NCBI GenBank assembly: GCA_026874595.1
Contig: CM049317.1
Location: 77,815,891-77,879,890, forward strand
From: Sipunculus nudus
Lineage: Eukaryota; Annelida; Sipuncula; Golfingiida; Sipunculidae
Length of the DNA: 64,000 nt
Reading direction: 5' to 3'
Below are positions 1,160 through 41,825 of the stretch, piece after piece (position 1 is the first letter of the stretch; each line of letters starts with the position of its first letter). Position numbers and translations under genes: made by a program. The notes beneath the pieces were generated by a model. That model saw only the letters and a program-made list of their open reading frames with translations. It was not told where the DNA came from and did no database searches.

Positions 1160-3060
1160 TACATATACTACAAGACTAATTCTACTTTGCTATTACAAAT
1201 TTATTTATTCGATTTTTTGTGTCAAAATGTTTAGAATAATAACAGATGCCTATTGAAAGCAAAATCAGATTACAGATATATTTTATTCATTTATTTATCT
1301 TACACATAAGCTGTATATGAACACCAATTATATTTGCTACATGTGCAGCTCTGCTTATATAGACAAAGAGCTGAGTTTGTTAGTACAATAAATCTCCTAG
1401 GTTTGTTTTTCCAAAGTGTCTCTGTCTTTTCACTGTTAAAGGTTGTATAATTCTTCCGAAATCCTTTAAGTTCTTTAAATAAACTTGAACATAGGCCACC
1501 AAAGAATCATTTTGTGCAATGTTACGGAAGTTGAAACAACAGTTTTGCGGACAGGCTTGATATTGGCTATGAGAAAAACTTCAGCTTACTATGAATCTAA
1601 CAAAAATAAATGAACCCAATATATTCTTATAAATTGAGGGGACCCTGCCATAGGATAATTTTTGTTAAAAATTAAACCATTCAGCTTAATAGTTTCATCA
1701 TAAAACATTTTTAAGCTGACAGGGGCTAAAATTACAAGGTTTTTGCCAGTAAAAACAATTTGATGTAGATGGCGCTAGAAAATCCTCATTCCTAAAATGA
1801 GTCATGTGGCCAAACTATGAACCAAGTGATATAATTCTTGTCGTTCCTGAGACTGCTATGTTTGTATGCTAACTTGGCCAAATAACTTAGTAAAAATTCC
1901 TGTAACTCGGCCTAAATGAGTCTATAATGACAAATCTTTTGACTTAACAGAAATGATCAGATTCATTTCACACAAATTTATATAACGATTAATAAATCAA
2001 AATCAACATCAAGAAATTAGTTACTCAGAAGTTCAGGAAAATGCACATTTTTAAAGATATTGTAAGGATATCATGTTGGAGAGTGTTAAGATTTTTTCAG
2101 TCCTTTCAAGGACCATGATAATGTCATGGTTTATGCAGTTGATATTCGTTATACATTGCAATGAATGCTTCTAAAATAATGCTTAATTTTTATTGCATAT
2201 TTTAAATCCTCATACACAGTATGGGCAACCTCCTCCAAAGTCCTCCCCAATTAAACATCATGTTGTTATACATATCTGGAATCAAAAGAAGCATAAGGCA
2301 TATTAATGTATGTTAGTCTATTATCACCGTGAGTACATCAGTGGTTCCGCTGTACATATGCATACGAAACAACCAAATCATAATAACCAAACATTTACAA
2401 TAGGGAAGAAAAAGATCTTATTTTTGTCACAACCAAAAGAGAAAAAATAACTTTCTTATTTTTTTTTGGACTAGAATGGTAATGTAACCTCGCTAAGGCT
2501 ATCTTATATACAAGAATATTTCTATTTATTTCTTATTTTAACCATGAAGTTCCTGCTTTTTCAGCATTTTTGTACCCCTGAAATTCCTATTTCCCATTTT
2601 CCTACCTTCACTTCTAACCTGGCGCCCTGGAGAAGCAATGTGCTTCGTATTACAAAATTCTACCTATGTCAGGCCTGTAGGAGTAACAAGGTGGTCCTCA
2701 GTACATAATTCTACTGTTGTGGATAAATGATAAATGATATCTGTGATTTGCAAGGTCACATGCATGAATTCTTCAGGTAGATAAAGCAATGAATCATTTT
2801 CTTAATCTCTCAAAAAAGCATACTGCCGTTTCCTTCAAAACGTCTTTCTTAAAATTAGCATTTTGTTAAATAACCGTGGGTTTTCTGAAAATGAAAAAAA
2901 TACTCAAATTTTGCTAAAAGTGTTTAAATTGGTCGAATATTTAACATTTTTGTTGATACACATCCAGGTGAAACCTTGGATTAAAAATAAAAGTGTGACG
3001 AATGAAGGGGAAATTGAAACTAGGGGAGTTTCTTCAGGATCCATTCGGGACCATTACAGC
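1160..3060. other. AT-rich non-coding stretch, no recognised feature
   Basis: Both strands hold only short, low-complexity reading frames with no recognisable domain, and no repeat family seen elsewhere in the window was noticed here. Confidence 0.5.
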
Positions 3061-3064
3061 TTAC

Positions 3065-3260
3065 CGTAGAAGGTGAAAACATCATCTAGAAATCTTTGTT
3101 CTTCTTCATCGTCAATGTATATCAGCTGAGAGCCAGGGTCCAGGCAGCACCTTCTGAACGCAGCGAATCTGAACCTGGGACCGATCCTGTTGACATAGTA
3201 GCAGTAGTCATACCCCCACCGAGGCATGTAGTCAGGGAGGCACAGTTGAATATGAGAATT
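3065..3260 (-). CDS. C-type lectin domain exon (N-terminal half), partial gene
   Basis: The minus-strand exon encodes a CTLD N-terminal half: CLPDYMPRWGYDYCYYVN, then FAAFRRCCLDPGSQLIYID and EEEQRFLDDVF. The pattern C-P-..-W-..-C-Y, A...C, G..L..I and E...F is that of the first half of a CTLD (first two strands and both helices). The donor on the minus strand is TACG followed by GTAAGC, in phase 1. The 5' limit is less sure: the AG at 3261-3262 would open the frame at phase 0, but its pyrimidine tract is weak. No matching C-terminal half was seen below 3,065, so this may be a gene fragment. Two adjacent Cys residues are unusual for the fold. A carbohydrate-recognition role is only family inference. 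Confidence 0.65.
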
Positions 3261-3269
3261 CTTGTGTAT

Positions 3270-4165
3270 CGATCGTTTATTTGTTTTGTGGACCTCATTT
3301 ATAAGTTTACGAAGGTTTATATATAACACCCAACGACTGAGCGAACTTTTAAAACTTTAGGAATAAAATGAAAGAATAATATGTATAAATGATTCCCATC
3401 TTTTATAGATAGCGTTTGTAACAATAATTCCAGATCCCCACCCAGGATATAAGAAAAATATTGTATATGACGAAACATATTGTATATGACGAAACTTCTT
3501 ATAATCTTTATATAGGTAATACAAAAGCAAAAAAAAAAAAGTGAATTTATTTACAACATTTCAATTTGGTGGACCACATTATTCTTTTTACGTGACCATA
3601 TATTTATTAATGTGAATTAAAGGTGCCCATTCTACTACCTTTGGAAAGGATTTAATGTGATTTCTGGCTCATTCTGTGTATATATTAATGATCTAAGGGT
3701 AATTCTGGTTATGAAAAGTTTTGATAAGGCCTCAGTAAGGATGCATGTATTTGTTTATCAACAATATGAAAAAATAGGGGGAAAAATGTAACCAAAGGTT
3801 GAAGGGTGCATACATGCGGAGGTAGAGAATTAAGTCACTTTTTGCAAAACGCCATTTGCAAAGATCTGGCTAATCTGACTTGCCACAAGATGTCCTGGAT
3901 AAATTTGATGAATTTTGATGATTTTTTTTGTCTCCCAAATATTAGAAACACGTCGATATAAACAAAACAATCAGCCTGTGTTCGATTATATCCATTTTGT
4001 CTGTCCTATTTCTATATAAGCTCCGAGGGATTAAATTTAATTTATAAAGGTCAGATAGGTGATTGGGCCCCTTTTAACATAATGAGGAAAGTTGCCTTCA
4101 TCCCGCTCAAAAAATAGATTTACAGGACGAAAACACCATAATGGAAAGACAAAAACTGAAAGATT
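3270..4165. other. Intron or spacer, no recognised feature
   Basis: AT-rich DNA between the CTLD-like and PAN-like exons. It contains a two-copy duplication of about 21 bp near 3,458-3,498 (ATATTGTATATGACGAAAC). Nothing else is supported. Confidence 0.45.
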
Positions 4166-6170: not shown

Positions 6171-8035
6171 TGCCGTCGTTTGCCGTAAAGGCAGCGTGGT
6201 AGTCCGTGCATGTCCCTACTTCTTCTGTACATACGTCAGTCGTTGGCCGTAAGGAGACCGTTATTGTTCGTGCATGTCCCTACTTCTTCTGTGCATACGT
6301 CAGTGGTTGGCCGTAAAGACATCGGTATTGTTCGTGCATGTCCCTACTTCTTCTATACATACGTCAGTCGTTTGCCGTAAAGACATCGTTAGTGTTCCTG
6401 CATGTCCCTAAATCATCTGTATATACGTCAGTCGTTGGCCGTAAGGACACCGTTATTGTTCGTGTATGTCCCTACTTCTTCTGTACATACGTCAATCGTT
6501 GGCCGTAAAGACATCGGTATTGTTCGTGGATGTCCCTACTTCTTCTATACATACGTCAGTCGTTTGCCGTAAGGAGACCGTAATTGTTCGTGCATGTCCC
6601 TGCTTCTTCTGTACATAAGTCAGTCGTTGGCCGTAAAGACATCGGTATTGTTCGTGCATGTCCCTAAATCTTCTGAATATACGTCAGTCGTTGGCTGTAA
6701 GGAGACCGTTATTGTTCGTGCATGTCCCTGCTTCTTCTGTACATACGTCATTCGATGGCCGTAAAGACATCTTTATTGTTCCTGCATGTCCCTAAATCTT
6801 CTGTATATACGTCAGTCGTTGGCCGTAAGGAGACCGTTATTGTTCGTGCATGTCCCTACTTCTTCTGTACATACGTCAGTGGTTGGCCGTAAAGACATCG
6901 GTATTGTTCGTGCATGTCCCTACTTCTTCTATACATACGTCAGTCATTTGCCGTAAAGACATCGTTAGTGTTCCTTCATGTCCCTAAATCTTCTGTATAT
7001 ACATCAGTCGTTGGGCGTAAGGACACCGTTATTGTTCGTGTATGTCCCTACTTCTTCTGTACATACGTCAATCGTTGGCCGTAAAGACATCGGTATTGTT
7101 CGTGGATGTCCCTACTTCTTCTATACATACGTCAGTCGTTTGCCGTAAGGAGACCGTTATTGTTCGTGCATGTCCCTGCTTCTTCTGTACATAAGTCAGT
7201 CGTTGGCCGTAAAGACATCCGTATTGTTCGTGCATGTCCCTAAATCTTCTGAATATACGTCAGTCGTTGGCTGTAAGGAGACCGTTATTGTTCGTGCATG
7301 TCCCTGCTTTTTCTGTACATAGGTCATTCGATGGCCGTATGGACATCTTTATTGTTCCTGCATGTCCCTAAGTCTTCTGTATATACGTCAGTCGTTGGCC
7401 GTAAGGAGACCGTTATTGTTCGTGCATGTCCCTACTTCTTCTGTAAATACGTCAGTCGTTGGCCGTAAAGACATCGGTATTGTTCGTGCATGTCCCTACT
7501 TCTTCTATACATACGTCAGTCGTTTGTCGTAAAGACATCGTAAGTGTTCCTGCATGTCCCTAAATCTTCTGTATATACGTCAGTCGTTGACCGTAAGGAG
7601 ACCGTTATTGTTCGTGCATGTCCCTACTTCTTCTGTACATACGTCAGTCGTTGGCCGTAAAGACACCGTGATTGTCCGTGCGTGTCACTACGTCTTCTGT
7701 ACATACGTCAGTCGTTGGCCGTAAAGACACCGTGATTGTCCGTGCATGTCCTTACGTCTTCTGTACATAATTCAGTCGTTGGCCGTAAAGACACCGTGAT
7801 TGTCCGTGCATGTCCTTACGTCTTCTGTTCATACGTCAGTCGTTGGCCGTAAAGACACCGTGATTGTCCGTGCATGTCCCTACGTCTTCTGTACCTGTGT
7901 CAGTCGTTGGCTGTAAGTCATCGTTATTGTTCGTGCATGTCCATACTTCCTTTGTATATACGTCAGTCGTTTGCCGTAAAGACATCGTTATTGTTCGTGT
8001 ATACCCCTACGTCTTCTGTACCTACGTCAGTCGTT
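6171..8035 (+). repeat. 64-bp satellite array with a 9-monomer higher-order repeat
   Basis: About 29 head-to-tail copies of a 64-bp unit (core CAGTCGTTGGCCGTAAAGAC, then TGCATGTCCCTACTTCTTCT). Diagnostic variants recur every 576 bp: CAGTGGTTGG at 6,301 and 6,877, with the matching position at 7,453, and the AAGGAGACCG monomer at 6,237, 6,813 and 7,389. That is exactly nine monomers per higher-order unit. The last part (about 7,640-7,890) is a separately homogenised block carrying GACACCGTGATTGTCCGTG. Since 64 is not a multiple of 3, reading frames here are accidental. Confidence 0.95.
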
Positions 8036-8869
8036 GTGACGGCCTCCCACAGTCCACGAGGGCGTCGGCACGGCTTTCATACGATTTTGTTGCGACAAGA
8101 TCAGGACATGGGAGGAACTTCCATGGTCAGTCATGGACAATAAACGGATAATGGGGAATGGTCGGTCTGGGTAGGGACTTTTTAGAACATCCGTTGAGTT
8201 TGGGGTAATAAACTGCCGCTAGGGATCGTGGCGGATGATGACGGGCATAGCCAAGGACCCCCTACGATTCCCCATACGGTTCACTCGGGGTTATCAAGGG
8301 ATGAGATTGTGACCGTGAGAGTGTGACCTAGGCTTAACAAACCACGAGACCCTTCACAAAATGATTGGAATGGAAATATTTTTCCCATGGATGCTCCATG
8401 ATTACTCAACTCCAGACCATCCGTCGCCGTAAGTACCCATATCCATTGCAGTGTGACTAGGACTTTACTAGTATATTGCGTCAGGGCTGTATGTTCAGCC
8501 TGACGTCTTGCACACCAAAATGAAACTTTGTATGAAAACTCAACCTTTAAAAAAATATCAGTATGTTAAGCAATATATAAGTTTGGTAGTCATTTCTCAT
8601 AACATTAATTCATTTTTCAAATTGTTCTCACTCTTTCCTCCAGATAAAGCAGTTTATATTTCTATTTTATTAGTGTTATTTTTTTTATAAAATAACCAAT
8701 TTACAGATGCCTAGGTGACATGTTCCTCAGAACAAGAAGATCCTGGTCCGCAGAGATTCCCCTGAGAATCGGAGTAATTGGCTTAGTTAAACATCGTTAG
8801 TGCTGAGAGCTCTCTACTGACAAACGCCATGAATGGATTTATATTTTCGGAAGCAGAAAACCTAGATCG
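8036..8869. other. Flank between the satellite and the MITE, no gene recognised
   Basis: To about 8,480 the composition resembles 4.3-6.1 kb (moderate GC, CpG words). After that it is AT-rich. No domain or repeat family is recognised. Confidence 0.4.
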
Positions 8870-13872: not shown

Positions 13873-13936
13873 TCATGAACGAGTATCCTCCCCATTTGGT
13901 GCAACCATTACCTTGGTCACACGGGCCCTGGGTTTC
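13873..13936 (-). CDS. Receptor gene, cytoplasmic tail exon with stop
   Basis: It starts after a pyrimidine-rich acceptor (TTTATTCCTTTTATAG) in phase 2 and encodes KPRARVTKVMVAPNGEDTRS then TGA. No ITAM, YxxL or other named signalling motif is present. The tail is short and basic near the membrane. Confidence 0.75.
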
Positions 13937-16900
13937 CTATAAAAGGAATAAACATGAATATAAATACAACCTTGTAAAATGAATATCACCTCATATGCAA
14001 ATAACTTCAGTAATATCATAGTTGCATTGTCTGAATAAATTCTGAAGTAATTCCAGTTATAATGATACTCAGGGTAAAACTCATACGCCATAACTAACCA
14101 AGCATTAGTCATGGTTAGTGGTTCGAGAAACGTCATATCTTGTCTGTGCACCTGACGTCTTGGTGTTTCAGTTTACAAAAATACTATTCAGGTCTTTTGG
14201 ATGTACAAAGTGACAAATCAGCTCCCAATGTTGTTCCTAATTGAAAGCAATGCAATGATCGCACTTTAATTCACAAAATTTGAACAAGACATTTATATCT
14301 GTTCGGTCTATTGGTATCTGTGAATTTTGTATTATAATTAATGTTGACACTTAAGCTTCGCCGTAAAATTCCTCTGTAAATGTAAAACTTCGAATATGAC
14401 CCTTTCGATGCCAAGTGTCCTAAGGGGAATTATAATCACGTCATTAATGCGCTGTTTTAGCAGTTAATGGACAAGACAGACTCACCTGAATTTCCATAAG
14501 AGCAGTATGCCAATAAAGGCCGTAAAGGATATACACGCCATGCATACGGAGAGGTACAGGACCGGGTTCACCCATCCAGCCTCTTGGCAATGGGGGGCCG
14601 GTCCACTTTCATCTGTCATGTTAGTTCTGTTATTGGTTCTGCTGTTGGGTCTGCTGTTTGTTGTATTGATTGTTGTGTTTGTCGATACCGTAGGGGCGTC
14701 CATGAGTATCTCATCGGCTGTATATGGTTTTAAACATTAATTTTATCATAGAGTTTGTTATATATTAATTAATATATATTTTTCATACATTTAAGATACA
14801 AAAACCGTCCACCAAAACTGAATTCAATAGAGCACTGATTTTTTCCTTCCAATGCTATATTCCGTTTTAAATCTGAAAGCTTTTTAGACAGATGTCAATG
14901 CAAATATTCGTCGAAGTGAGTATTGATACAATGCACAGGCGAGAATGAAACTAATTCCATATGTTTATGTTGGACCATTTCCTGTGTGTACGTGTGTTTT
15001 CCCTAAATGAAATTGCTGCCGATGGGATCGGGCTGAATCCCTGGTATTTGCACAATACTTTGCCATTGAACAGTTAGTTAAAGGAAAGTGAATCCCTACT
15101 CGTCTGCATATAGGTACTATCCGCTGTAAGACGTCAAGCCTACCTATCACCCCTCATATATATTTGGACTGACCCATTTATCGGCTACCCTATTACAAAG
15201 TAGGCTGTCCTGTGTATCACGGCAGGGGGCCCTTCACTTATTTTGTTGTCTGAATAATCTAGACATTTGCAGGGCAGCCCTCGCCTCGAGCGGCACTTTA
15301 GCGACACGTCATCTTGACGTGCTAAGGCGCTAGATTATAATCGACAGAAGGCGAAATTACAGTAGCCGCCGCGATTGTTCTAGCCGCCCAGTTATCACGT
15401 TAACCAATAGACTGGCAGTTAACCTTTGGCTCAGTAATATTCGGACAGGCCTTTGGGGATTTAAACTTTAATTACAGTGTTGTTCTATTTCAGCCGTGCG
15501 GAACGCTTTAGGGTAATGAGTAGACGGGGACCAAATGAGTCACTCTTTATTTGCAGTGAAATTTTGTGAAAGACCCCGGTATTGCTGACGTACAAGGAAA
15601 ACATCCTCAGTTCAGTTTCGACAGGTGGCGCTGACTACCGCCTCGTTGTCCACTTTACCAGTCGATATCCAGGGAGCTGGGTGTGTTGTAACAAGTACTA
15701 GTACCCCAGTATTGAGGCAAATTATATATCTAATTCACTGACTGAGGACTATTAATTTAAGGCGTACCAACTTCGCCACAGTGAGTGCTGTGTCTGTATC
15801 ATTTACTGAGGACAGCTCACCCTGGTCACACCGTCGCCCCTTGTAACCTCTCCTACATCCACCATCATGACAGTCACCGTCTGTTGACGAGCACCTGCCC
15901 GCTGTACACTGACCACACTCACGGCTACAGCCAGGGCCGTAATGCTGGGCGTCACACAGGTATACCTGACCATTGTATAACTGTATTATACATCAAGTCT
16001 GAGTCAAATATAGGGGCAGATTAAATACAGGGGCGATACCCGGCGTTTAACGATCTCAGATTACAACTTACAGCACAATTAAAAAAAATCCACATCGGGG
16101 GGGGGGGGGGGGGGGGGGCATATATTACCCACCATCCTTTCTCTATGTCAGCCAACCCCATTCTAAAATCCTCTCTCTGTATCGGCCTCTGAAGTATATA
16201 GATTTATTAAACTGAGTCCACAACTCCCTAGGGCAACCACTCCTTTTTTACCATTAAGTAAAACATAATTACACTGATAGTGCTATATCCGTGTATCAGA
16301 CCTTTCGTTTGCCACCTAATCCAATTGTTGACTGCTAATTTAAATGTCGCTTTAATCAGGTGGAAATATCAGGTATTGGTTTGACACAGTTTAGTATAAA
16401 AGGGATTATGCATTCCAGAAAAGATTTAAACGGAAACTGTTTTTAATATTAAATAATTTATTATAATTTAAAATACTTTTAGAACTGAAGAGACATTCCA
16501 CCAACGGATAATTTTTGTATATGAAAATAAATTTTATACTTTTTCGGCATTTTAAAATGTTTTTTTGTAAAATTTATTTATTTTTATTTTTATTATAAAA
16601 TACCAATATTCCTGAAACAAAAATAGAGTCCAAACCTTTCGACAGGTCACATGCATATTCGGGTCCGGACACGGAAAACCATCACCGTCAGCAAAACAAT
16701 ATTCCTCCCTCCCGGTTTTCCCTGAACACCCCTGCGAGACCTGTACAAGCCGGGCCGCTCCTGCCAAAAACATTGTCATTGCATTCGCATTTTGAAAGAA
16801 TAACGTTGTTTCACGTGGTACGATGGCTTAAAAGGTTGTTACGTGTCTCCACTAGAGTATTTCTGGCAGTGAAAAATATGATTTTTTGACCTGGTATGCT

Positions 16901-19900
16901 GACCATATTTTATTGTTTAATTAGTGTGGACGTAAACTACGACAGGTGATCATATGGTATACTATGATATGGTAAGGCACGGTGTAAGTGTATTAGGCCC
17001 CTCGTTATATTGTTTATAGATCAGTCACTACACAGATTGCTACATACAAAAGGGTCATGGGCCTCGAGTCCTGAATCTGAAGTCGAGTAACGAAGGAACT
17101 ACATTCGATACTCCAATTAACAATGTCAGGGAGGGGCGCAATCCCCTAATACAATGTGTGAGGGGGAGGGGTCTCGAATCCCCTAACTCAACCTTACAGG
17201 CCTGTGCAACGGGATATATCATATTAACCCCCCCCCCCTCCTCACCACACACACACACATATATTATTTCAATAAGAGTTTCTTGTGGTGGACCTGGAAT
17301 CCACTTCGAGAGGGGGGGGGGGGGCTGGGGGGGGGGGGGGGGGTGGCTTCTCTCGCGGCTCTTGAAGGTATTGATCACGTAAATCACTTCATATTTTCAG
17401 TCGGATTTGTATGTTAGTTATTTATATTATGAATCACCTCACAGTATGACTCCTTTTGGTATTATAGTAATTTATGAAATTCTCCAAATCATTAATATTT
17501 GAGGAACTTTGCAACACCATGACACGTCATTTTAACTGATTAAAACTACGGCCTATAATTAAATGACATTGACAAATTAAAGGGGGGGGGATATAACATG
17601 TTATGTCCCACATTGCTGAAAAAAGTGAGCGAGGTGTGTGTTGGGTAGGGTTATGAATACCAAGTGCCCCTCCCAAATAAATTGCGCCCATGCTTGATGG
17701 TATTAAATATTTATGTATATGTTATATTTTAAAGCATAATACGCATAAGGTCAAGAATAAATCACTGACCGTTGTTGTATCTGAACATTTTACGCGGCAA
17801 GCTTTGTAGCTGTCGACATGCCACTCTTCCTTCCTGCAAGCGGAAATTTCTGTCGCACACGTGTCGCCACCTGATGGCGTGCCAGACCTGAAGGATTCCT
17901 GTGTAGGTCGTAGAAATGTAGTATGCAGACACGTTCTCGATTCCGATCAGCTGCAACATGAAAATGGTTTCACACAGCCTTCATATACCTTGATGCTTTG
18001 GTTAATAAAGCTGTTGACTTCCGTAAATCACCAAATCTTTACAATTACATTGACAGCAATTCATTAAAACATATAAAGGTAAGGGACAACATATTTAGCC
18101 TTTATTTTTCTGGCAGTCGAATTGATATGGAACTGTAATGTGTGATTTTAAGAGACAAGGAACTGTATTCTCAGTGGATCTTTCAAAGGGATATTGATGA
18201 AAACATATTTAGATGACCGTGCGCGTGGCCTTTAAAGAAATATTGTCAGGAAAAAAAATGCCTTAAACGATACAGATTTAAAGTCTAGTTTATCCAAATT
18301 ATACATTTATTTAAGATTCGGTGATAAAACTTAACAGCAAACCTGCTTGTCTGTGTGACGACACGTGACCCTGACAGCCTGATCAGGCCCGCATTCATGC
18401 AGTCCCCACTCTTTGTGTGCGCAATCGGTGATTTTGGCCTCATTTCCGGAGCATATGACGTCATCCAACCAGTAATTGTCTGAGAAGAGAAAAAAAAAAA
18501 AATCAGGAGATAAAATCAGCTAAACCATGCACCGTGAATAGAAAATATAGCTTTTTATTATATTTTTTATATCAATTTCTTAAAACGTAAAATTGAGATA
18601 TTTATCAAATGGAACAATTAAATGTTTATTGAATGAATAGCACTTTCTTATCAAATCTTTGTATTATTAACTAATCTTTTTTTTATAAAACTGCTATTGA
18701 TTAGGTTTTATTTAATATGGAAAAATCATAGTACATAATTATATATTTTTTAATAAGCACAAGGAATTTAAATATCATTTACTCCTGTGCCTGCCAATTT
18801 ACATTCGTTGTACAAGAGGCGTTTGAAATACCCATTTTCTTAATCCTTGTTCTAGAATACCCCAATCATAAAGTCAAAACTCACTTACTCCGTAGGGAAC
18901 TCCTGAGACGATTACTGCCATCTGGTGGCAAAATGTATAAAAATATATGATTCTTGAAGTTCTTGAGTCGATTAGGATTATCGAGGAATGGAATTATGTT
19001 GAAGGTTACATATCATCGTGGTTAATATAATCACTAATGGTCTGACAAGTCTATCATTTCTACGGATAGTGGTTGGCGAGAGTATATGTCACTCTCGTTA
19101 GTTCTATAAATATAAAGCACATAGGATTTTCTAGGTGTTAATTTTCTTCTAGGAATAATTACTCTTCCTCTATTTTTCCGATGCCCTCCGGGTGACATAT
19201 ATAGACCTATCGGTTGCCACAATTTAAACTGCGGAAGACGGTCAAACCGGAGAGGATCGGTACACATCAGGCTCCGCGGTTGCAATACCCGGCGTTGTAA
19301 CTAACCTGTCTCCTGGGCACACATGTAGTGTCGTTCTGAAAAACATGTCTGGTCGTTCCATCTTCCGTCCGTTCTTATTTCCACACAGTGTTCATTATCA
19401 TCGCTGTTACTCGGATCGCCTTTATCCCAGTTCAGGTAGGATGGCTACAAGTGACCAGACAAAATATAAACACAACTGAAATGACAATTTTTTAGACCAA
19501 GGTTGCCCATAAAATTGGGCTCCTCAATTAGGGACCAGAGCAAAGTGATGTCCATAGACTCCTGTAGTTACATATGATTATAACACTGTACAAAGTGATG
19601 TCCATAGACTCCTGTAATTACATATGATTATAATACTGTACACAAGTCTGAAGGATTCAACGTAATTCCATTGATTAGTGTTCAGTCGATCTATTCGAAT
19701 TGAATATTAACCAAAACTATTTGCAAAAAAAATGTTAGCTCGCCAGTGCATGTATTTTAGAACTATTGAAATCAAGACTCTGAGACAAAAACCGGGATAT
19801 GCTGCTTTCAGTGTTCGACATTAGGGGTCGATTTATGTCTCGTTACTGTGTTAATTACGGTGGCTCGTACAGAACACCAAGAAAACTTTTCTTATCTCGT

Positions 19901-22900
19901 TCCCACGCGACAGAATTGCGTGGCCACACAAAAATTATCACGTGGGAACAAGACGCTAACGAGTAGGAAGGCGTTAGTAAGCTATGCTATCTAAAGCCCT
20001 CACTTGGACAAGAATGTTTGTGGTCTGTTGTCTGTTGTATGTCAGAGCATTAATGCAACTGAAAATGTATTCTGTTGGATGTGCGTTTACGCCGAATCCT
20101 TAGAGGTAAATTTACTGCGGCTCCATTGCGTTGGCTCAATATTTCATTGCGTTGGTTCAACTCGTCCTTTTTTGTGTGTTCAGGGAAAACTTTATTGAGT
20201 TTGTTTAGGGTTACTGATTTTAAGGTTAGGGTAAGGGATATATACACCCTTGTGTACTAAACATATGAAATAAACTGAAACACTTGCTTATATTTTCTCT
20301 TCCCAGAAAATCTTAAATTTATTAGGGTTAGAGTTAAGAGTTAGGGTTATATGATCTCGGGTATACCGAACAGGGAAAACAAGATGTCGATTTGTATTAT
20401 GTCTCAAGGGAAAAGCTTACAACAAAAGGTGTCAGCCATGCTGGGGCGGGGGGGGGGGGGGGGGGGGGGGGACATGTCACCGTCACTTTTTAAGGAGAGG
20501 TTGTGGCCGGGCCATTTTTTTGTCCCCTCTTTTTGGAGAAAATAAAACTTTCTACGAGAAAATTGCGCAATTTCCCTCTCAGATCTTCCACAATATTATT
20601 TCAGTTATATATTTCATATCATGAAAATTTAGTATCGCACATGTTTTATCCGAACATAAAGCCTTGTTCATTCGTTAAATTAATTACAGGTATGCGTGGG
20701 AGGGTAAGGGAGGGGGTGTCCCCCTCGGTGTTATGTCTGGTCTACCCTCGCCATAGCAACGATGACCGTTTGACCCAGAAGGTAGCCGCGGTGTGTGTGT
20801 GTTTATGCCAAATTTCACACAAATGTGAAGTGCCCTAGAGGCCACCAAAGATTCTTTTCCAGCTCTCAAAGTCCAAACAGCGCGATCTTTATCAGCCAAG
20901 CACGAACAGCCGCCAAACAGCCTGAGCAAAGTTCAGATGTAACGTGTTGACCACCAGAGGCGGACTGGGCCACCGGGAAACCGGGAAGATTCCCAAAATA
21001 TTGATGTGTGTTGGCCGATGATATACTCTAAATATTGATGTGTGTTGGCCGATGATATAGACTAAATATTGATATGTGTTGGCCGATGATATAGACTAAA
21101 TATTGATGTGTGTTGGCCGATGATATAGACTAAATATTGATGTGTGTTGGCCGATGATATGGACTAAATATTGATGTGTGCTGGCCGATGATATAGACTA
21201 AATATCGATGTGTGCTGGCCGATGATATGGACTAAATAATGATATGTGCTCGCCGATGATATGGACCAAATATTGATGTGTGCTGGCCGATTGTATGGAC
21301 TAAATATTGATGTGTGTTGGCCGATGGTATAGACTAAATATTGATGTGTGTTGGCCGATGGTGTAGACTAAATATTGATGTGTGTTGGCCGATGATATGG
21401 ACTAAATAATGATATGTGCTCGCCGATGATATGGACCAAATATTGATGTGTGCTGGCCGATTGTATGGACTAAATATTGATGTGTGCTGGCCGATGATAT
21501 AGACTAAATATCGATGTGTGCTGGCCGATGATATGGACTAAATAATGATATGTGCTCGCCGATGATATGGACCAAATATTGATGTGTGTTGGCCGATGAT
21601 ATAGACTAAATATTGATGTGTGTTGGCCGATGATATGGACTAAATATTGATGTGTGCTGGCCGATGATATAGACTAAATATCGATGTGTGCTGGCCGATG
21701 ATATGGACTAAATAATGATATGTGCTCGCCGATGATATGGACCAAATATTGATGTGTGCTGGCCGATTGTATGGACTAAATATTGATGTGTGTTGGCCGA
21801 TGGTATAGACTAAATATTGATGTGTGTTGGCCGATGGTGTAGACTAAATATTGATGTGTGTTGGCCGATGATATAGACTAAATATTGATGTGTGTTGGCC
21901 GATGATATAAACTAAATATTGATGTGTGTTGGCCGATGATATAGACTAAATATTGATGTTATTTGGCCGATGGTGTTACATTTTTGCCGCTTTCACATAT
22001 ATGTCCAGGGACTTTATCTCACCCCAGTCCGCCCCTTTTGACCACGCGTAAAAAGGCTTGTGATCAAGTCAGGGAGTTAGGTTCAGGCAAACGTTGCAGG
22101 CACCGTTCGAACACTTCTTGGGGATTAACTTAATTTCCTTGATCAAAATGGGTAGACATTCTAATATTTCTGGCCAAATTGATGTTGAATTAATGGTCAG
22201 TATCTAAAATAAGCAAATGCACGACTTAAGCATGACGTGCTTATATGCAAATGAGAAGAAATCACCAGCTCCTTGAAACGCAAATACCAGTAATTCACCC
22301 ATTCAAGTTAACAGGTCGTCAATGTAAGATCAGCGTAGATTTTATCTATACGGCTATCGAGGCATGGAATAACGTCTTATTTTACAAATTGTAGCGGAAA
22401 ACATAATTACTGGCGGTCTGGCTGGTCTTTAGTCCAGTATACTGATTTATTTATGTGGGTCAAAGTGCAGGGGCGGATACAGGATTTATAAAGGGGGGGG
22501 GGGGGGGAGGCTGAACACCCTGGCACAGTTGACCACGTGTACCGGTACTGTTAGGAGACTTCATGCACAAACTCTCGCATGCTGACATATTGGGAAGTTT
22601 ACGACACCAGACGCAGAAACCGCCGCTTATTTTAGTTATTAAGCGTTTATTTTCCCAGAATTTCGGTGGAAAAAGAAGAATCATGTGCTCCATCCTTTCT
22701 GCTCCTGAGGTGTGTTTCCGTCACAAATATACCAGGATAAAAAAAAACAAATATTTAGGTAATATGACATTTTGAAGAAAGAGGGCAATTTGAACATTTT
22801 TACTTTAACTCACAATTGTCTTTTGCATGTTTTGCATGTTGGACTTTATATTACAATGATTATATTATTATTATTATACATTATCTCATATTGGAAACCT

Positions 22901-23346
22901 AAGTTGCCCTCCCTGTCTTGTTTTACTTGATTCCACATGCCATGAAGGACCAGAACATAATGCAGACAACATTGGAGTAGTTTATTCAAGGGATAAATCG
23001 AGCTGTAGCAACACCAGTATCCCATTGTACCATTAATTATACACGCATCTTAAAATACTATAGAACTGATTTTATCCCGAGTAGGATATTACCTACCTGT
23101 ACTTTATATTTTCTTTCGAAATTTCCTTCTTTGTTTCTATCATTAAACAAGACCCATGTTTTATCTCGTAGCATCCCGCGGATAAACTCATTATCTGGCT
23201 CACTCGGAATGTCCGCCAGATCAGCCCCTAATGCCCGGCACTGCTCACGAGCTTCTTCCTATCCAACTTCATCTGTAAAAAGTCTGTAGCAAGTTCCTCG
23301 AAACCTTGTCCATGTATCTGGACAACCTGATGTATTATATAAATAT

Positions 23347-23400
<54 letters not shown>

Positions 23401-23921
23401 AACGTTTCAACTTTAGACTCTTTATTGCTCTGTTAAGTATAGCACACTTCATAGTCCTATAACTTCAGTTAAGGAACACTGGTTATAAACTGACGTATAC
23501 AACAATTGACGCTTAAGCTTAAACAGATGTTTATACAAACGTCATGGAGGAAGAGAATGAAATTTTAAGACTGCTAACAATCAGTATACATAAGCAAATT
23601 ATCGTGCCATATTATGTTCAAGAAATATTGCTACTACTACCACTACTATTACTACCACTACTACTACTAGTATAACTACTTCTACTACTACTACTAATAA
23701 TAATAATTTCCATATTATATTTGCTTTACTTACCCTTTGTGTGTATCCCGGCAGTGACTTTTACATCCACGTTCTTTTCCGTAGAGTCACAAATGCTTCC
23801 TACGTCTGAGGGCGAAGTAGGGGGAAGACCCGTGCATTCGTAAGATAAAACTCAACCAGGAATCCGAGTGACCTTGTGACCTCTCCTCCATCCGGACAAG
23901 GCGGAGGTCTCCAGACGTGAG
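13873..23921 (-). CDS. CTLD / SRCR / EGF-like single-pass membrane receptor gene, possibly a null allele
   Basis: Nine minus-strand exons join with matching phases (1,0,1,0,1,0,1,2) into about 480 codons: an N-terminal segment of unknown fold, a full CTLD split over two exons, an orphan C-terminal half of an SRCR domain, a divergent complete SRCR in two exons, one EGF-like segment, a Thr/Asn/Ser-rich stalk, a membrane helix and a tail of about 20 residues. The visible signals fit a type I surface protein with its recognition domains outside the cell; SRCR and CTLD proteins commonly bind microbial or modified ligands, so a recognition or scavenger role is inferred from families only. Two lesions stand out: a TAG at the conserved CTLD Trp and a frame break in the first exon seen. 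A signal-peptide exon was not found and should lie above 23,921. Downstream exons are intact, so the gene may be a recent pseudogene, a null allele, or affected by sequence errors. Confidence 0.75.
14486..14717 (-). CDS. Receptor gene, stalk and transmembrane exon
   Basis: It encodes a Thr/Asn/Ser-rich linker with several N-x-T sequons (TVSTNTTINTTNSRPNSR, TNNRTNMTDESG), then one hydrophobic helix, VLYLSVCMACISFTAFIGIL, followed by LLWKFR. Basic residues after the helix put the C terminus in the cytoplasm. The linker is likely glycosylated. The donor is a consensus CAG-GTGAGT in phase 2; the acceptor is ATATACAG. Confidence 0.8.
15821..15965 (-). CDS. Receptor gene, EGF-like (laminin/MEGF type) exon
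   Basis: It reads VYLCDAQHYGPGCSRECGQC, then TAGRCSSTDGDCHDGGC and RRGYKGRRCDQ. CD..HYGPGCS..CG.C, C....G.C..GC..GYKG..C is the spacing of tandem EGF-like repeats of scavenger receptors such as SREC and MEGF10. The donor is CCAGG then GTGAGC (phase 1) and the acceptor is GGTCAG. Confidence 0.85.
16099..16118. repeat. Poly-G tract
   Basis: A run of about 20 G within a receptor-gene intron; similar tracts occur across the window. Confidence 0.9.
16636..16760 (-). CDS. Receptor gene, divergent SRCR C-terminal half
   Basis: It reads AARLVQVSQGCSGKTGREEY, then CFADGDGFPCPDPNMHVTC. The cysteine ladder C-SG-..-E..C-...-C-...-V.C fits the second half of an SRCR domain, but the usual W-L-D-D and W-G motifs are lost. 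The phases (1 in, 0 out) fit its neighbours exactly, which is the main support. The donor (AAAG then GTTTGG) is weak. Confidence 0.65.
17220..17345. repeat. C-run, CA repeat and long poly-G cluster
   Basis: A C-run at about 17,226-17,236, an AC stretch, then about 30 G with a few interruptions at 17,312-17,343. It lies within a receptor-gene intron. Assembly or base-call errors are likely here. Confidence 0.85.
17770..17950 (-). CDS. Receptor gene, SRCR N-terminal half
   Basis: It reads LIGIENVSAYYISTTYTGIL, then WHAIRWRHVCDRNFRLQEGR and VACRQLQSLPRK. The stretch W..VCD.NF.L.EGRVACRQL corresponds to the SRCR W.TVCD..W...DA.V.CRQLG. It starts in phase 0 after TGTTGCAG and ends in phase 1 at AACG then GTCAGT. 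N-terminal residues are diverged from the family. Confidence 0.75.
18343..18479 (-). CDS. Receptor gene, orphan SRCR C-terminal half
   Basis: It follows the CTLD exon in phase 1: DNYWLDDVICSGNEAKITDC, AHKEWGLHECGPD and QAVRVTCRH. WLDDV.C.G.E..I..C....WG...C.......V.C is the second half of a scavenger-receptor Cys-rich domain with all its cysteines. The preceding exon is the end of a CTLD, and no SRCR first half was found in the 826-bp intron between, so the half-domain appears to be used alone. The acceptor has a long pyrimidine tract (TTTTTTTCTCTTCTCAG). Confidence 0.8.
19306..19444 (-). CDS. Receptor gene, CTLD C-terminal half
   Basis: It continues the CTLD in phase 0: PSYLNWDKGDPSNSDDNEHC, then VEIRTDGRWNDQTC and FSERHYMCAQET. 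The W..G.P.N, C..I...G.WND..C and C signature of the second half is complete. WND is kept, but DPS stands where EPN or QPD normally determines sugar choice, so sugar specificity cannot be predicted and binding may be non-canonical. It ends in phase 1 at GAGACAG then GTTAGT. Confidence 0.85.
19541..19640 (+). repeat. Two-copy 50-bp tandem duplication
   Basis: CAAAGTGATGTCCATAGACT begins at 19,541 and again at 19,591. The units differ at two positions. Confidence 0.9.
20200..20350 (+). repeat. Short telomere-like TTAGGG patches
   Basis: Degenerate runs such as TTTAGGGTTACTG, AAGGTTAGGGTAAGGG and ATTAGGGTTAGAGTTAAG, then AGTTAGGGTTA, occur within 150 bp. TTAGGG is the usual animal telomere unit. 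The runs are too short and impure to claim an old telomere. Confidence 0.4.
20440..20471. repeat. Poly-G tract
   Basis: About 24 G after GGGGCG, in the largest receptor-gene intron. Confidence 0.9.
20955..22037. mobile_element. hAT-type MITE carrying a 34-bp satellite
   Basis: The element is flanked by a perfect 8-bp duplication, TTGACCAC, at 20,947-20,954 and 22,038-22,045. The left end is CAGAGGCGGACTGGG; the right end on the other strand is AAGGGGCGGACTGGG, 13 of 15 matching. Inverted ends plus an 8-bp target duplication are the hAT hallmark. There is no transposase; nearly all of the 1,083 bp is a tandem array. It sits within the intron between the two CTLD half-exons. Confidence 0.88.
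20996..21968 (+). repeat. 34-bp satellite array inside the MITE
   Basis: About 28 copies of a unit built on ACTAAATATTGATGTGTGTT then GGCCGATGATATAG. The variant GATATGTGCTCGCC recurs at 21,241, 21,411, 21,547 and 21,717, spacings of 170, 136 and 170 bp (5, 4 and 5 monomers), so blocks of several monomers were copied together. Confidence 0.95.
22471..22512 (+). mobile_element. Single GGCGGAT-type MITE end
   Basis: CAGGGGCGGATACAGGATTT followed by ATAAA and a G-run is the same end type as at 8,870 and 58,011. No partner end was found nearby, so this is a truncated copy. Confidence 0.5.
23097..23326 (-). CDS. Receptor gene, CTLD N-terminal half with in-frame TAG
   Basis: It encodes CPDTWTRFRGTCYRLFTDEV then, after a stop, EEAREQCRALGADLADIPSE and DNEFIRGMLRDKTWVLFND. 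These are the hallmark residues of a CTLD first half (C..W....CY, A...C...G..L..I, E..FI). Codon 22 of the domain (23,259-23,261) is TAG where CTLDs carry the W of the W-x-x-A motif; TGG to TAG is one substitution. The donor is CAG then GTAGGT (phase 0) and the acceptor is ATCAG. Confidence 0.85.
23339..23398. repeat. (AT)n microsatellite
   Basis: TA dinucleotide run directly upstream (minus strand) of the CTLD N-terminal exon. Confidence 0.95.
23630..23706 (+). repeat. Imperfect (CTA)n microsatellite
   Basis: Repeated CTACTACTACCACTACTATT-type triplets ending in TAA triplets, within a receptor-gene intron or 5' flank. Confidence 0.9.
23734..23921 (-). CDS. Receptor gene, first exon seen (frame-broken)
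   Basis: It lies between an acceptor (TTTACAG) and a strong donor (AAGG followed by GTAAGT, phase 1). The 3' part reads YECTGLPPTSPSDVGSICDS then TEKNVDVKVTAGIHTKG, and joins the CTLD exon in frame. The 5' part looks coding in another frame (HVWRPPPCPDGGEVTRSLGF). In the frame that joins the CTLD there is a TGA midway. A one- or two-base indel would explain this. No domain was recognised. Confidence 0.45.
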
Positions 23922-24118: not shown

Positions 24119-24290
24119 TACAGTTAAACCTCGTTGTGTCTAACTCGGTTAAGTCGAATTTCCGCATGTGTCGAAGTCAAATGTAGAATCCCTGCAAAAA
24201 AAACTTTAAATCCTTACTAATTTAACTCCTTTCGTATCGAACTCGGATGTGTCGAAAAACCTGATTTATCGAGGTGTTTTGTTGGTCCAA
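24119..24290 (+). mobile_element. Possible pogo/Tc1-type MITE end
   Basis: TACAGTTAAACCTCGTTGTG, AACTCGGTTAAGTCGAATTT and TATCGAACTCGGATGTGTCG are words typical of pogo-like elements with ends beginning CAGT.GAACCTCGTTA. Only the left end is seen; the LINE follows directly. Confidence 0.4.
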
Positions 24291-24304
24291 AGGTAGTATT
24301 TCTA

Positions 24305-27300
24305 TTGCTTACCTCGAAGCCATGTCAAGGCAGAAACCATGAGGGTGGTGGAGTGTGTCTGTTTATCAAGAACAATCTTGCATACAACCGCAGAGAGGAT
24401 TTGTGTAAAGGAGAAATTGAATTTTTGGCTGTGGACATTCTACTCCCAAAGACTAAACCTATACTATTTGGGGTGGGTTATAGACCCCCTAAGGACTTGG
24501 ATTTTTATAATAAACTAGAGCACAATTTGATAAATTCCCCTGCTATGATACAGCTGGAATGTTACATATTAGGACATATTAGGAGATTTCAATACTGATG
24601 TTCTAAATAAAAGGAGAAATAAACTTGTAAATGATTTAAACAACTTTCTTAGGATATTTGATATGAAACAGATCATAGAAGAACCTACTGGAACAACTGA
24701 TACATCAGAAACATGCATTGATTTAATCTTAGTGTCAGACTCAGAAAAAAATAAAACAATTTGGGGTTCTGTCAGCTAAAATCAGTGACCATAATGTAAC
24801 CTTTTGCACACGAAAAATTGCTAGGGGTATTATAAACAAACACAATGTAACCAAAATAAGGTCTATGAGAAAATATAATATTACAAGTTTCAATGATGAA
24901 CTGAAACAGGTAAATTGGTCAGATGTGTATAAATGTGAAAATATCAATTTAGCCTGGGGAAGATTGAGTGAATTGCTTCTTAAGGTGGTAGACAGCGTTG
25001 CTCCGGTTAAAACAGACTAAAACATGGTACGGAACCATGGTTTTCTAGCTACATCTTAAACATGATTAGTGAGAGAGACAGAGCTTGGTTTAAATTCAGG
25101 AAAACTAAAGACAGCAGTATTTTAGTGAGTATAAGAAACTTAGAAACAAAACTCAAAGAGAAATATGTAAAGCCAAGAGAAATTTAATGAGGAATGAATT
25201 AAGTGAAAACCAAAATGAACCAAAAAGACTATGGAACATACTGAGAAACATGGGCATCCCCACTAAAATAAAGAAAGGAAATGTTAATATAGGGCTGTAA
25301 AATAATGATGAAGAGGCATGTTTTGAAACCAAATTTGTTGCAAAAAAATTTAATGAATTTTTCTGCAATATTGCAAACTTGTAGATAAACTTACTTTTAG
25401 GCCATATGATAAGAAAGAAGTTTTCGAGTTTTATAAAAAACAAAATGTGATTGCAAGTGGATTCAAATTTTCTGTGGTCAGTGAAGAAACCATTGTTAAA
25501 TTTATTAAGAGGTTTAAATGTTGCAAAATCTACTGGAAGTCATTTAATTTCACGAAAATTTCTTAAAGATGGTGCACACTCAATAGCAGCACCTATAACT
25601 TTTAAAATACATCTATCTCTACAAACGTCAAAAGTTCCCACTGATTTCAAAATAGCCAGAGTAGTCCCACTCTTTAAAAAAGGTGACAGAAATTATGAAG
25701 GAAATTACAGACCTGTTTCAATCTTACCAGTCATATCCAAAATTTTAGAAAGAGGTGCATATGACCAATTGTATTTTTATCTTGGAACCAAAAATTTGTT
25801 CTACCAGTATTAATCAGAATTTAGGCCTGGGTCATCCACCAACACTGCTCTAACACATCTTACAGATAAAATAAAGATTAAATATGGATAGTGGAATTTA
25901 CTCTGGCATGGTACTTATAGATCTGCAGAAGGCCTTTGATACTGTAGATTACAATATTTTAACTACCAAATTACATGCAATTGGATTGAATACTCCAGCT
26001 GTTTCATGGTTCGAGTCTTATCCAAAAGACAGAAGACAATTTGTGGAAATCAATAATGTACGGTCTAATTATGGGAATGTTACGGGCGGGGTACTGCAAG
26101 GTTCGATTTTAGGACCGTTGTGATTTCCTATATATGTAAATGATATGAAATGTGTAGTAGGATGCGATTTAGTCTTATAATCAGATGATTTTGCTTTAAT
26201 AGTGATGATTTTGCTTTAATAGTGAATGGGAAAGACCCCAAGGAGATAGAATGTAAACTTTCACTTGCATTAGAGTCATTGTGTGTATGGTTGGATGAAA
26301 ATAGACTCTCCATTCATCCTGGTAAAACTGAAAGTATTTTATTTGCATCAAACCGAAGACTAAGAAAAAGGAACATGTAATCCATTAAATGTAACTCTGT
26401 GGACATTATCTCTAAAGAAAATGTTAAATATCTTGGGGTACTACTTGATCAGACCCTCTCTGGAAACATCATGGGTAACTCAGTCATAAGTAAAATAAAT
26501 ACTAGAATAAAATTTCTGTACAGGAAACATGCAAATTTGAATTTCAGGGAAAGAAAATTTGTTATGCTCTTCACTACTACAGGGAACTTTTTATTATGTT
26601 TGTAACACTTGGTACCGGGGACTTCATAAAAAACTGAAGACTAGGCTTCAGACTGCTCAAAATAAAATGGTACGTTTTGTCAGAAATTTTTCAAATAGAC
26701 AAAGCTTAAGAGTAAGTGATTTTAAAAAGCTGAAATTGTTGGATGTTTCACATAGGGTTGATTATTTATCACTGGGTTTAATGTATAATACACATGTTCC
26801 TCGTGTACCTGTCAGACATTCTTATAACACACGAAGCTTATGTTGTGACTCAAGTCAAAACTCCGGCTAAATATAGTTTTAAATTTAATGGAATAAAATT
26901 ATGGAATGAATTGCCATCTATTATTAAAACTTCAATCAGTAAGAGATTATTTATGAAGAACTGCAAAGACTACTTATTGGGGAAATGAAGGAACTGGAAA
27001 ATGGAATTTTTGTTACATAATTATTAAAACATGGTCATTTTTATCTTTGAATATCTTAGTCACTGTATTGGAATAGATGTGACTCACAGGAACATGAATG
27101 TCTTTGTCACTCTTAGTTTTTTTTTTTAATTATGAACACTCAGTCGTTTTAAACTATTCATGTAACTATTATTATCACTGTAATTTTTATAATATCGTAG
27201 TCGTAGATTTTAATATATGTAACTGATTGACATATGTACATATATAAGTGTGTCTATGTCAATAGTCTCAGTCAGCACTTTGAAATTAACTAATCCGATG

Positions 27301-30399: not shown

Positions 30400-31920
30400 T
30401 TCCGGAGAACTCCTCCAAAACCACTGGGTAGAATTTTTTTAAAATTCGGAATTATGATCGGTCACATGTGAACTGCTGCGCCATAATTTTAGGTTGACCT
30501 CTGACCTTTCCTCTCTGCCCAGCGTCCATTTGTGCGTCTGTTTCCACACATACACCCACATATCTCGGGAATCGTTTGAACGATAAGGTCAAAGTTTTTG
30601 CACAAATGTAGCCCTTGGAAAGCTTTATAACTTACACTAAAAATTCCGGTGCCAACTGCGACCATTTTTGCTCAGCTTCCATCTGTTCATCTGCCTTGGG
30701 ATAAAATCACTCATATCTCGGCAGTGGTTTGACTTATCAATCTGATATTTTGCAGGTTTATACATCCTTGACAGCTTTCTTGATTTTATGACAGGTGGCG
30801 CCACCTACATTAAATTTTTTTTGCTACAGACATCCAAGCTCATATCTCAGGAACCATTTGACCGATTGGGCAAAAACTTTGCATATTTATAGATCTCACA
30901 TAGCTCTTTATCATACGCAAAAGCGGTTGCGCCACCTGCGATCATTTTTGCACAGCGTCCGTCTGTTTGTTTGCCGTGGGATAAAATCACTCATATCTCG
31001 GCAGTGGTTTGACATATCTGCCTAAAATTTTGCAAGTTTATACGTCTTGGATAGCTTTCTGGATTTTGTGGCAGGTGACGCCACCTACATTTATGTATAC
31101 GCTGCAGACATAGAGGCTTATATCGCAGGACTGGTTTGACATATCCCCCTAAAATTTTGCATGTGTATAGATCTCACATAGCTCTTAATCATTCACAAAA
31201 TTGGTGGTGCAACCTGCCACCATTTTTGCACAGCGTCCATCTGATTGTCTGCCATTGGCTAAAATTACTCATATCTCAGTAGTGGTTTGACTTATCTGCC
31301 TAAAATTTTGCAGGTTTATACATCTTGGATAGCTTTCTGGATTTGTGGCAGGTGGCGCCACTTACATTTATGTATATGCTGCAGACATTCAGGTTTATAT
31401 CTCAGGACTGGTTTGACATATCCCCCTGAAATTTTGCATGTGTATAGATCTCACATATCTCTTAATCATACACAAAATTTGGGGGCGCCACCTGCCACCA
31501 TTTTTGCACAGCGTCCGTCTGATTGTCTGCCGTGGGCTAAAATTACTCGTATCTCAGTAGTGGTGTGACTTATCTGCCTAAAGTTTTCCATGTTTATACG
31601 TCTTGGATAGCTTTCTCGATTTTGTGGCAGATGGCGCCACCTATATTTATGTATACGCTGCACACATTCAGGCTTATATATCAGGACTGGTTTGACATAT
31701 CCCCCTGAAATTTTGCATGCGTATAGATCCCCCATACCTCTTAATCTTGCACAGACTTGCACAGTGTCCATCTGTTTGTTTGCCGTGGGCTAAAATCACT
31801 CATATCTCAGTAGTGGTTTGACTTATCTGCCTAAAATTTTGCATGTTTATACATCTTGGACAGCTTTCTGGATTTTGTTGTAGGTGGCGCAACCTACATA
31901 AACATTTCGGATGCAGACAT
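30400..31920 (+). repeat. 278-bp tandem array with GGTGGCGCCACC palindromes
   Basis: The word GGTG.CGCCAC.TACAT recurs at about 30,795, 31,074, 31,352, 31,629 and 31,883, a period near 278 bp. Each unit has two halves, the second marked by CGCCACCTGC.A.CATTTTT, and shares CTCATATCTC then CAGTGGTTTGAC. Reading frames within are not conserved between units, so it is non-coding. Confidence 0.85.
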
Positions 31921-37622: not shown

Positions 37623-38100
37623 ACGATGAAGAAAAACAACACTGTAAATTCACTACAGACTGTTTTACGGGATGCGACCCGATCCTCAGGTGAATGTTGT
37701 TAGAATGAAGCTAACGGCATGGAATTTACGAGATTATGCTTGGTGCGTATCGGGGAGAGCAACTAAATGACTGACACTGATCCTATTGTGCTCGGGGGCA
37801 CAATAGGATTATTCGGGGTACATTTGCAATGCTGGAACCTTACAGGTTTATTATTTTATTATTTATTACAGGATGTTTTACCAGGATGCCCATTCAACAC
37901 AGTATGCTGATATTTAATAGGGTCCTGGGTCCAGTGATCATTTCAGTTGTATACAACTGTTTCTCTGTTGATCATTTCAAGTAATGTTTGTTCAAAAGGA
38001 AATAATTGAGGCGGGGAAATTACGCATTGGCAAATTTCGAGCGTGTGGTACGAAACTAATTAGTCATGAAATGCCTGAAGAAAACCTAGTTTAGGTATTT

Positions 38101-38153
<53 letters not shown>

Positions 38154-39059
38154 TATACAATATATATAGGAGTAGTGCTCTCCTGACGATTATTTTTTTG
38201 CACAGAAAATTTCGATTGAATATTACACATGTATATTACACATTTGCGTTATGTAAATTTATTTCTCGTCAAATAAACAGTTCTGAGTTCTATTTGGTTG
38301 GTTTAAGGCTGCATCCCGGTTTCAGCCGTGCCCATATTCTCAGAATAATTACAAAATAACTTTCTTTACCATTCACTTCTAATCAGGCGTTCAAAGTCAG
38401 TTCTATTTCATTTAAACAAAGGCCTTTCTTTTTGCTGCCCGAATTCGAAACATTATGAATGTATATGCCGTTGTCCCACTTCGTGACCCTTCCCGCCCGC
38501 TGTGCACTCGCTGTGGTCCACGTATTATATCTCCACTACCTGTCTACACCCATTTTTCCTGCATTGTAATCGGAAACAAACACGTGATTTCTTAGTTTTA
38601 ATATCATTCCAAAAATGGGCATAGATTCCTTATTTTAGCCTCTTCCATTCCTTAAAGTCGTTTTCAAAGTTGGCACCTTTGTATTCTCTCCTAGCTAGAG
38701 GCTTCGCTGTGCAATATTCCCTTTATAATAAATCCATGTAATTAGGGCCCCGCTTGAATAAGCGAGTTCGCTATAGTAATCACCTTAATTGTCTGTCCTT
38801 CCACAAATTCGTTTACGGATGATGACTCCTGTTTGGACATAAAGATTTCAAACTTTACTTATATGGCCCACAACAAAAGCTGATGGGGTCAAAGGTCAAG
38901 GTCACAGGATCCACTTAAAAGAAATAATGCAATGTAATCAAAACACGCATCTCAAACCTTCCACCTTACACATATAACTTACCTTCTAACAGGGGAAGAT
39001 TATTTCGATTTAATTTTCGATTTAATTATTTTTCTTCAAGCATATCACTCAGCCCGTAC

Positions 39060-39120
39060 TGGATATTTTTTTGGGAGCATTTTCCCCTCTTTCCCCGGGA
39101 TACGCCGGGTAACTCTGCTA
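39060..39120 (+). mobile_element. Helitron-like 3' terminus
   Basis: CCCGG-GATACG-CCGGG forms a 5-bp stem with a 6-nt loop and is followed by TAACTCTGCTAGT, then an AT run. A short GC hairpin just before CTAGT is the Helitron 3' signature. No Rep/helicase ORF is present, so it is non-autonomous. The 5' TC end is not placed. Confidence 0.55.
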
Positions 39121-39181
<61 letters not shown>

Positions 39182-39439
39182 TACGTCCCTCGTTAGTACG
39201 GTAAACATGACCCAATGGACAGCAACACATATTTTCAGACACGTATCCTTATAGATAAACTTGAATACAGTGTAGGTGCAATAATAATCATATTATTTAC
39301 AATAAACACAACAACAGACAAAATGATAGAATTAAGGCACAATAAAGCTAAAAAAGTCCCTGGTAAGTCCTGTAACATAAATGAAATACTTAACAGATGG
39401 AGGAGGCCTATACACCACAAATACTCTTGCTGATCATTA

Positions 39440-40697: not shown

Positions 40698-40762
<65 letters not shown>

Positions 40763-41740: not shown

Positions 41741-41825
<85 letters not shown>

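Follow-up and report, generated by a model that had tools for sequence, protein, structure and literature searches.

The analysed window, a 64,000-nucleotide stretch of the Sipunculus nudus genome (contig CM049317.1; C12:77815891-77879890), includes a minus-strand gene of nine exons. It belongs to a large membrane-receptor family, of which dozens of copies are present in the genome. The parts of these receptors are familiar and their arrangement is unusual: it is likely that in this family a CTLD is nested within an SRCR domain, and that the copy in the window is disabled.

When the gene was rebuilt, all exons were flanked by AG/GT splice ends, and the phases across the eight exon joins were 1, 0, 1, 0, 1, 0, 1 and 2. 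The exons code for a family-wide segment (exon 1, E1), a CTLD divided between two exons (CTLDa and CTLDb), the second half of a first SRCR domain, SRCR A (A2), the two halves of a second, SRCR B (B1 and B2), an EGF-like segment, a stalk with a membrane helix, and a tail (Table 1). The Pfam search was run on joined exons 2-9 with an X placed at the stop. It gave Lectin_C at 62.3 bits (E 8.4e-17, profile positions 6-106, cut-off 22.6) and SRCR at 54.5 bits (E 1.5e-14) in two stretches, while SRCR B taken alone gave 35.2 bits (profile positions 6-99). SRCR domains of group A have six cysteines and are coded by two exons, and SRCR B likewise has six cysteines (at 201, 214, 241, 251, 260 and 269) and two exons. 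The cysteine pattern of the EGF-like segment is similar to the eight-cysteine pattern of the stabilin-type domain EGF_STAB1-2 (PF24887), the match reaching 22.3 bits and thus remaining below the curated cut-off of 27. The membrane helix had a Kyte-Doolittle value of 2.44 across 19 residues and is preceded by the cysteine-rich domains, from which we infer a type I orientation. No signal-peptide exon was identified in the window gene. The nine exons with eight matching phases of the original prediction were thereby recovered, as was a membrane receptor with the predicted domain order, the EGF-like segment being the only one of its three searched domains without a match above the cut-off. The one and a half SRCR domains that had been predicted were found as A2 and SRCR B, but the half is probably not a stand-alone unit, E1 being its likely other half.

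Among the sequences of solved structures, the CTLD of the window gene had its top match in C-type mannose receptor 2 and the A2-B1 stretch in CD163. The latter, a member of the SRCR superfamily, consists of a row of SRCR domains and is not known to contain a CTLD; the window gene resembles it in the A2-B1 stretch and adds the CTLD. The sugar motif of many lectins is EPN or QPD and is absent from some CTLDs. At this place the window CTLD has DPS, so neither motif is present, and several CTLDs of its relatives have EPN or EPD. A possible exon of 33 nucleotides was observed in the window gene at approximately 18919-18887 (phases 1-1), and a 34-base repeat of about 29 copies is situated at 20996-21972, in the intron separating the two CTLD exons.

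Table 1. Exons and other features of the receptor gene, with positions counted from the first letter of the window.
Feature	Positions	Strand	Remarks
Exon 1 (E1)	23734..23921	-	Copy of family-wide exon; most likely first half of SRCR A
CTLD first-half exon (CTLDa)	23097..23326	-	Phases 1-0
In-frame TAG within CTLD	23259..23261	-	Stop in first-half exon
CTLD second-half exon (CTLDb)	19306..19444	-	Phases 0-1; WND present; DPS
SRCR A second half (A2)	18343..18479	-	Four cysteines; phases 1-0
SRCR B first half (B1)	17770..17950	-	Phases 0-1
SRCR B second half (B2)	16636..16760	-	Phases 1-0
EGF-like segment	15821..15965	-	Eight cysteines; weak match to stabilin EGF-like profile; phases 0-1
Stalk and membrane helix	14486..14717	-	Asparagine/threonine-rich; four sequons; phases 1-2
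Short cytoplasmic tail exon with stop codon	13873..13936	-	AATAAA downstream at 13739

A protein search of the source genome (1.43 Gb in 153 contigs) gave exon-by-exon matches to the window gene on other contigs. The loci collected comprised 20 stretches of 10 kb at SRCR matches, three at exon-1 matches on C17, and two more; these 25 larger loci were scored with profiles of five exon types (E<1e-4 per exon), and 17 short exon-1 stretches formed an additional sample. The loci are not random, as the first 20 were chosen for their SRCR matches and L049 and L050 as possibly lacking a CTLD. The full same-strand order E1-CTLDa-CTLDb-A2-B1 was present in 11 of the 25 loci (L010, L012, L013, L016, L020, L025, L026, L028, L029, L030 and L031), which makes it very unlikely that the exon order of the window gene is due to chance. 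Three loci included CTLDa-CTLDb-A2-B1 (L015, L018, L019), four CTLDb-A2-B1 (L009, L014, L021, L023), and three E1-A2-B1 with no CTLD (L011, L022, L049). The remaining loci showed A2-B1 (L027), A2 alone (L017, L024) or E1 alone (L050). In L009, L014 and L015 a same-strand E1 match is located upstream, just beyond the scored stretch. A2 comes after the CTLD in all 18 loci showing CTLD sequence; the half SRCR is therefore a family trait and not an accident of the window copy. The E1 profile also matched every one of the 17 short stretches, with E-values of 2.6e-11 or lower. The number of EGF-like units varied from one in the window gene to four in L019 and five in L016.

In two loci on C17 (L030, 171-4570; L031, 140-3532, reverse complement) the match to the CTLD first half was split in two, suggesting that an additional intron is present there. 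The SRCR genes L002-L008 on C7 differ from the family of the window gene in their layout, nearly the whole domain being present in one open stretch (profile positions 7-99 or 6-99). No relative was found when viral contigs were searched with the B1 exon.

The splice-site survey was based on profile matches at E<1e-6, with L001-L008 dropped, the best-scoring sites used and siteless places omitted; the E1 acceptor of L026, cut by the stretch, and the A2 donor of L017 were left out of the counts. The acceptor of E1 was in phase 0 in 7 of 9 cases and the donor in phase 1 in 9 of 10. The corresponding figures were 10 of 12 (phase 1) and 10 of 12 (phase 0) for CTLDa, 16 of 16 (phase 0) and 15 of 16 (phase 1) for CTLDb, 20 of 21 (phase 1) and 20 of 20 (phase 0) for A2, and 18 of 19 (phase 0) and 15 of 19 (phase 1) for B1. 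E1 thus shares the phases 0-1 of an SRCR first-half exon, and A2 has the phases 1-0 that B2 shows in the window gene. The two CTLD exons form a symmetric pair (1-1), in agreement with the phase 1 of the intron that separates E1 from A2. Invariant cysteines numbered two in E1 (9 rows), four in A2 (14 rows) and two in B1 (10 rows), so that E1 and A2 have six together, as in SRCR domains of group A.

According to the reading preferred here, SRCR A would in the CTLD-bearing members be coded by the two exons E1 and A2, and the pair of CTLD exons, which begins and ends in phase 1, would occupy the phase-1 intron between them. Splicing through all of these exons would give a protein in which E1 and A2 fold as one domain and the CTLD emerges from a loop of it. 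The termini of CTLDs are close together in known structures, which makes an insertion into an SRCR domain feasible. Towards the C-terminus would come SRCR B, between one and five EGF-like units, a sequon-bearing stalk, the membrane helix and a short tail. The CTLD may bind a ligand, and the receptor may serve in cell-surface recognition or uptake.

Relatives with E1 and A2 but no CTLD found between them occur at several places. In L011, L022 and L049, where E1 and A2 are separated by 1.7, 1.3 and 0.8 kb, respectively, no CTLD was detected in the interval by Pfam or by our own profiles. In L022 and L049 the donor of E1 has the same phase, 1, as the acceptor of A2, and the two exons can therefore join directly. 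Furthermore, L050 (E1) and L024 (A2) are neighbours approximately 4.7 kb apart, E1 first; no CTLD was found by our own profiles in either, or by Pfam in the L024 part. The E1-A2 layout of these loci would also be expected if the CTLD exon pair were an optional cassette, the same gene giving a plain E1-A2 SRCR form and a CTLD form, and the symmetry of the pair means that skipping it preserves the frame. Such a cassette is compatible with the nested arrangement and is a possibility to be taken seriously, even if a doubtful one. Extended to the whole family it could produce a receptor repertoire in which the loop-nested CTLD is spliced in or out, one gene having either a plain scavenger or a lectin-crowned head, which is a still more tentative proposal.

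The second half of SRCR A is clear. The first most probably corresponds to E1, which has the phases and cysteines described above and whose sequence provides modest evidence of derivation from an SRCR first half. The template used for SRCR first halves consisted of CD163, the single-exon SRCR genes of the source genome and B1. An alignment of 29 E1 sequences matched it over 44 columns at a score of 18.67, and the two cysteines of E1 lined up with those of the template; column shuffles of the alignment had a mean of 8.9 and only 1 of 400 was as good, and the E1 profile scored from 7.6 to 10.0 against CTLD and A2 templates. With nine E1 sequences, 3 of 200 shuffles were as good. Pfam was also run on E1 joined to A2, and in five (L013, L025, L012, L026 and L022) of 15 such joins the SRCR match started no later than profile position 17. 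With E1 shuffled before joining, none of ten began so early, the earliest start being 38, and the score of the real join exceeded that of the shuffled one in all ten pairs.

The link between exon 1 and SRCR emerged from the relatives and not from searches of the window. Pfam was applied to the minus strand at 1-10 kb, 12-27 kb and 27-37 kb and to the plus strand at 16-26 kb, and our own profiles to the six frames of the whole window; SRCR B apart, none of these searches gave a clear SRCR first half. With CD163 first halves as queries, a search that tolerated frameshifts ranked exon 1 second of 50 places, its score of 18.3 being no better than the 18.2 reached by chance, and ninth of 50 when B1 was added. 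Shuffles of exon 1 alone in these searches gave p-values of 0.005 and 0.01.

Several results weigh against the nested arrangement. The splicing of E1, CTLD and A2 together is a prediction from genomic sequence, the full exon order was not shown within the scored stretch at 14 of the 25 loci, and some of the surveyed splice sites had low scores. In the tree of A2 and B1, built from 22 rows with L027 excluded, the branches are weak, two changes are required, and gain and loss of the CTLD are not distinguished; the loci without a CTLD may represent losses. In 10 of the 15 E1-A2 joins the SRCR match began at profile position 45 or later and thus depended on A2. Three of the ten differences between real and shuffled joins were just 0.1 to 0.7 bits, in a control with one shuffle per locus and with a few joins varying by 1-2 residues at the seam. 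E1 is without the usual tryptophan ahead of the first cysteine. When B1 was left out of the template, the match shrank to 9 columns (score 12.65) with 29 E1 sequences and to 7 columns with nine, 8 of 200 shuffles then being as good, and E1 alone matched no Pfam family (window pieces and the E1 of L022). These last two results, and the spacing of the cysteines (14 residues between them in E1 versus 12 in B1), would agree with E1 being an unrelated N-terminal module, followed by the CTLD and a true stand-alone half SRCR in which the two left-over cysteines bond with each other or with E1. Against such a module stand the cysteine register, the phases, the number of cysteines and the shuffled controls, as well as the four places where A2 follows E1 with no CTLD found between them, and it is considered unlikely.

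The original prediction had treated the gene model as intact, which did not hold: no single open frame is present, owing to a frame change in exon 1 and the TAG at 23261-23259 in the CTLD. Each of the three frames of exon 1 is interrupted by a stop, and the frameshift-tolerant scan with the E1 family profile indicated a single frame change near 23850. In the E1 profile scan of the 64 kb, exon 1 scored 36.3 and the next place 19.7, and none of 500 shuffles was as good. At the position of the TAG, nine of ten aligned relatives have tryptophan, L012 being different. E1 matches were found at 40 places in the genome at E<0.01 and at 54 at E<=0.1, and 52 of these 54 were without a stop. All 30 CTLD first-half rows besides that of the window were likewise without a stop (among 100 scored of 1348 candidates). 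Given the two lesions and the mostly open relatives, this copy can be classed as a broken allele or a pseudogene, provided that the lesions are not both errors of the assembly; as read, it would not be expected to give a full-length protein.

An intact gene, with both lesions being assembly or sequencing errors, would be in line with the lesions being only two and the remaining exons and splice sites being clean. Two separate lesions in one gene argue against this, as do the scarcity of stops among the E1 rows (just 2 of 54) and their absence from the other CTLD first-half rows (0 of 30 among those scored), and errors at both sites appear rather improbable. Adenosine-to-inosine editing of the TAG was considered and rejected: the nearby inverted repeats consist of a TA tract and short imperfect pairs, and the strong fold at this place is mostly the TA tract. 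Editing would also be insufficient because of the lesion in exon 1. Finally, two neighbouring genes, a short lectin ending at a TAG just past the CTLD and an SRCR-EGF receptor, could be suspected from the stop that follows the CTLD when the donor is ignored and from AATAAA signals in the intron, but the exon order with matching phases recurs at 11 loci, making this explanation very improbable.

The combination of CTLD, SRCR and EGF modules was rightly considered unusual in the original prediction. The occurrence of SRCR and CTLD in one protein is rare though known; the comparison made here draws on portions of the sources cited. SpBark of Scylla paramamosain, a type I membrane protein, combines SRCR domains with a single CTLD; the latter binds lipopolysaccharide and microbes, and SpBark assists in phagocytosis (PMC6716108). 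By analogy with SpBark, the present receptor family may recognise microbes or particles, and the originally suggested role in pathogen or self recognition would rest on the same analogy. The Bark family has three SRCR domains and a CTLD, whereas the window gene has two SRCR domains and departs from the Bark pattern; it also differs from SpBark in its EGF-like units and in the likely position of the CTLD, flanked by the two halves of SRCR A, nesting being unmentioned for SpBark in the portion considered (PMC6716108). The bivalve CTLDcps combine CTLDs with other domains, scavenger receptors included, and some of the combinations are specific to bivalves; they were sorted by Pfam content, and the portion considered does not mention split SRCR domains or exon structure (PMC10140915). 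One sequence with SRCR and CTLD is described from the ctenophore Mnemiopsis leidyi, the relevant portion not mentioning nesting (PMC11797021), and in Trichoplax SRCR and CTLD are reported not to overlap, the same being said of cnidarians (PMC6321704). The portions covered of a survey of SRCR in 29 species include no CTLD nested in an SRCR domain (PMC10855680). Among the matches listed from the open literature, a scope outside which most subscription papers fall, no report of such nesting was found. A violated domain is regarded as a sign of a wrong gene model (MisPred rule 4; PMC3927609); in the window gene it was the violated SRCR domain that led to the nested arrangement being proposed.

The modules of receptors are usually arranged like beads on a string. 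Here a recognition domain has apparently landed inside another domain, at an intron of its host, and the nested gene layout has apparently multiplied after the insertion. The relatives without a CTLD provide a natural pair, with and without it, for the origin of a nested domain, and the dozens of copies form a possible recognition repertoire. Counting Pfam domains alone would overlook the nested arrangement, such genes being recorded with an odd half SRCR.

Elsewhere in the window, an open frame at 3057-3356 on the minus strand resembles a CTLD first half. It matched secretory phospholipase A2 receptor (E 7.3e-6) and, under the cut-off, Pfam Lectin_C (13.2 bits), and it is perhaps part of a second lectin-type gene. 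Another open frame, at 48612-48863 on the plus strand, resembles a CTLD second half (best E 0.25, no Pfam match). Open frames of a retroelement are located just upstream of the receptor gene (24221-26867, plus strand), and a weak reverse transcriptase match was obtained at approximately 25679-25879 (RVT_1, E 0.011, under the cut-off). Tandem arrays are present at 6175-8036 (64-base unit, 29 copies) and 30651-31753 (278-base unit, 4 copies). The regions 38090-40111 and 40687-42755 are tandem duplicates, nearly identical and offset by approximately 2.6 kb, that are visible as near-identical open frames.
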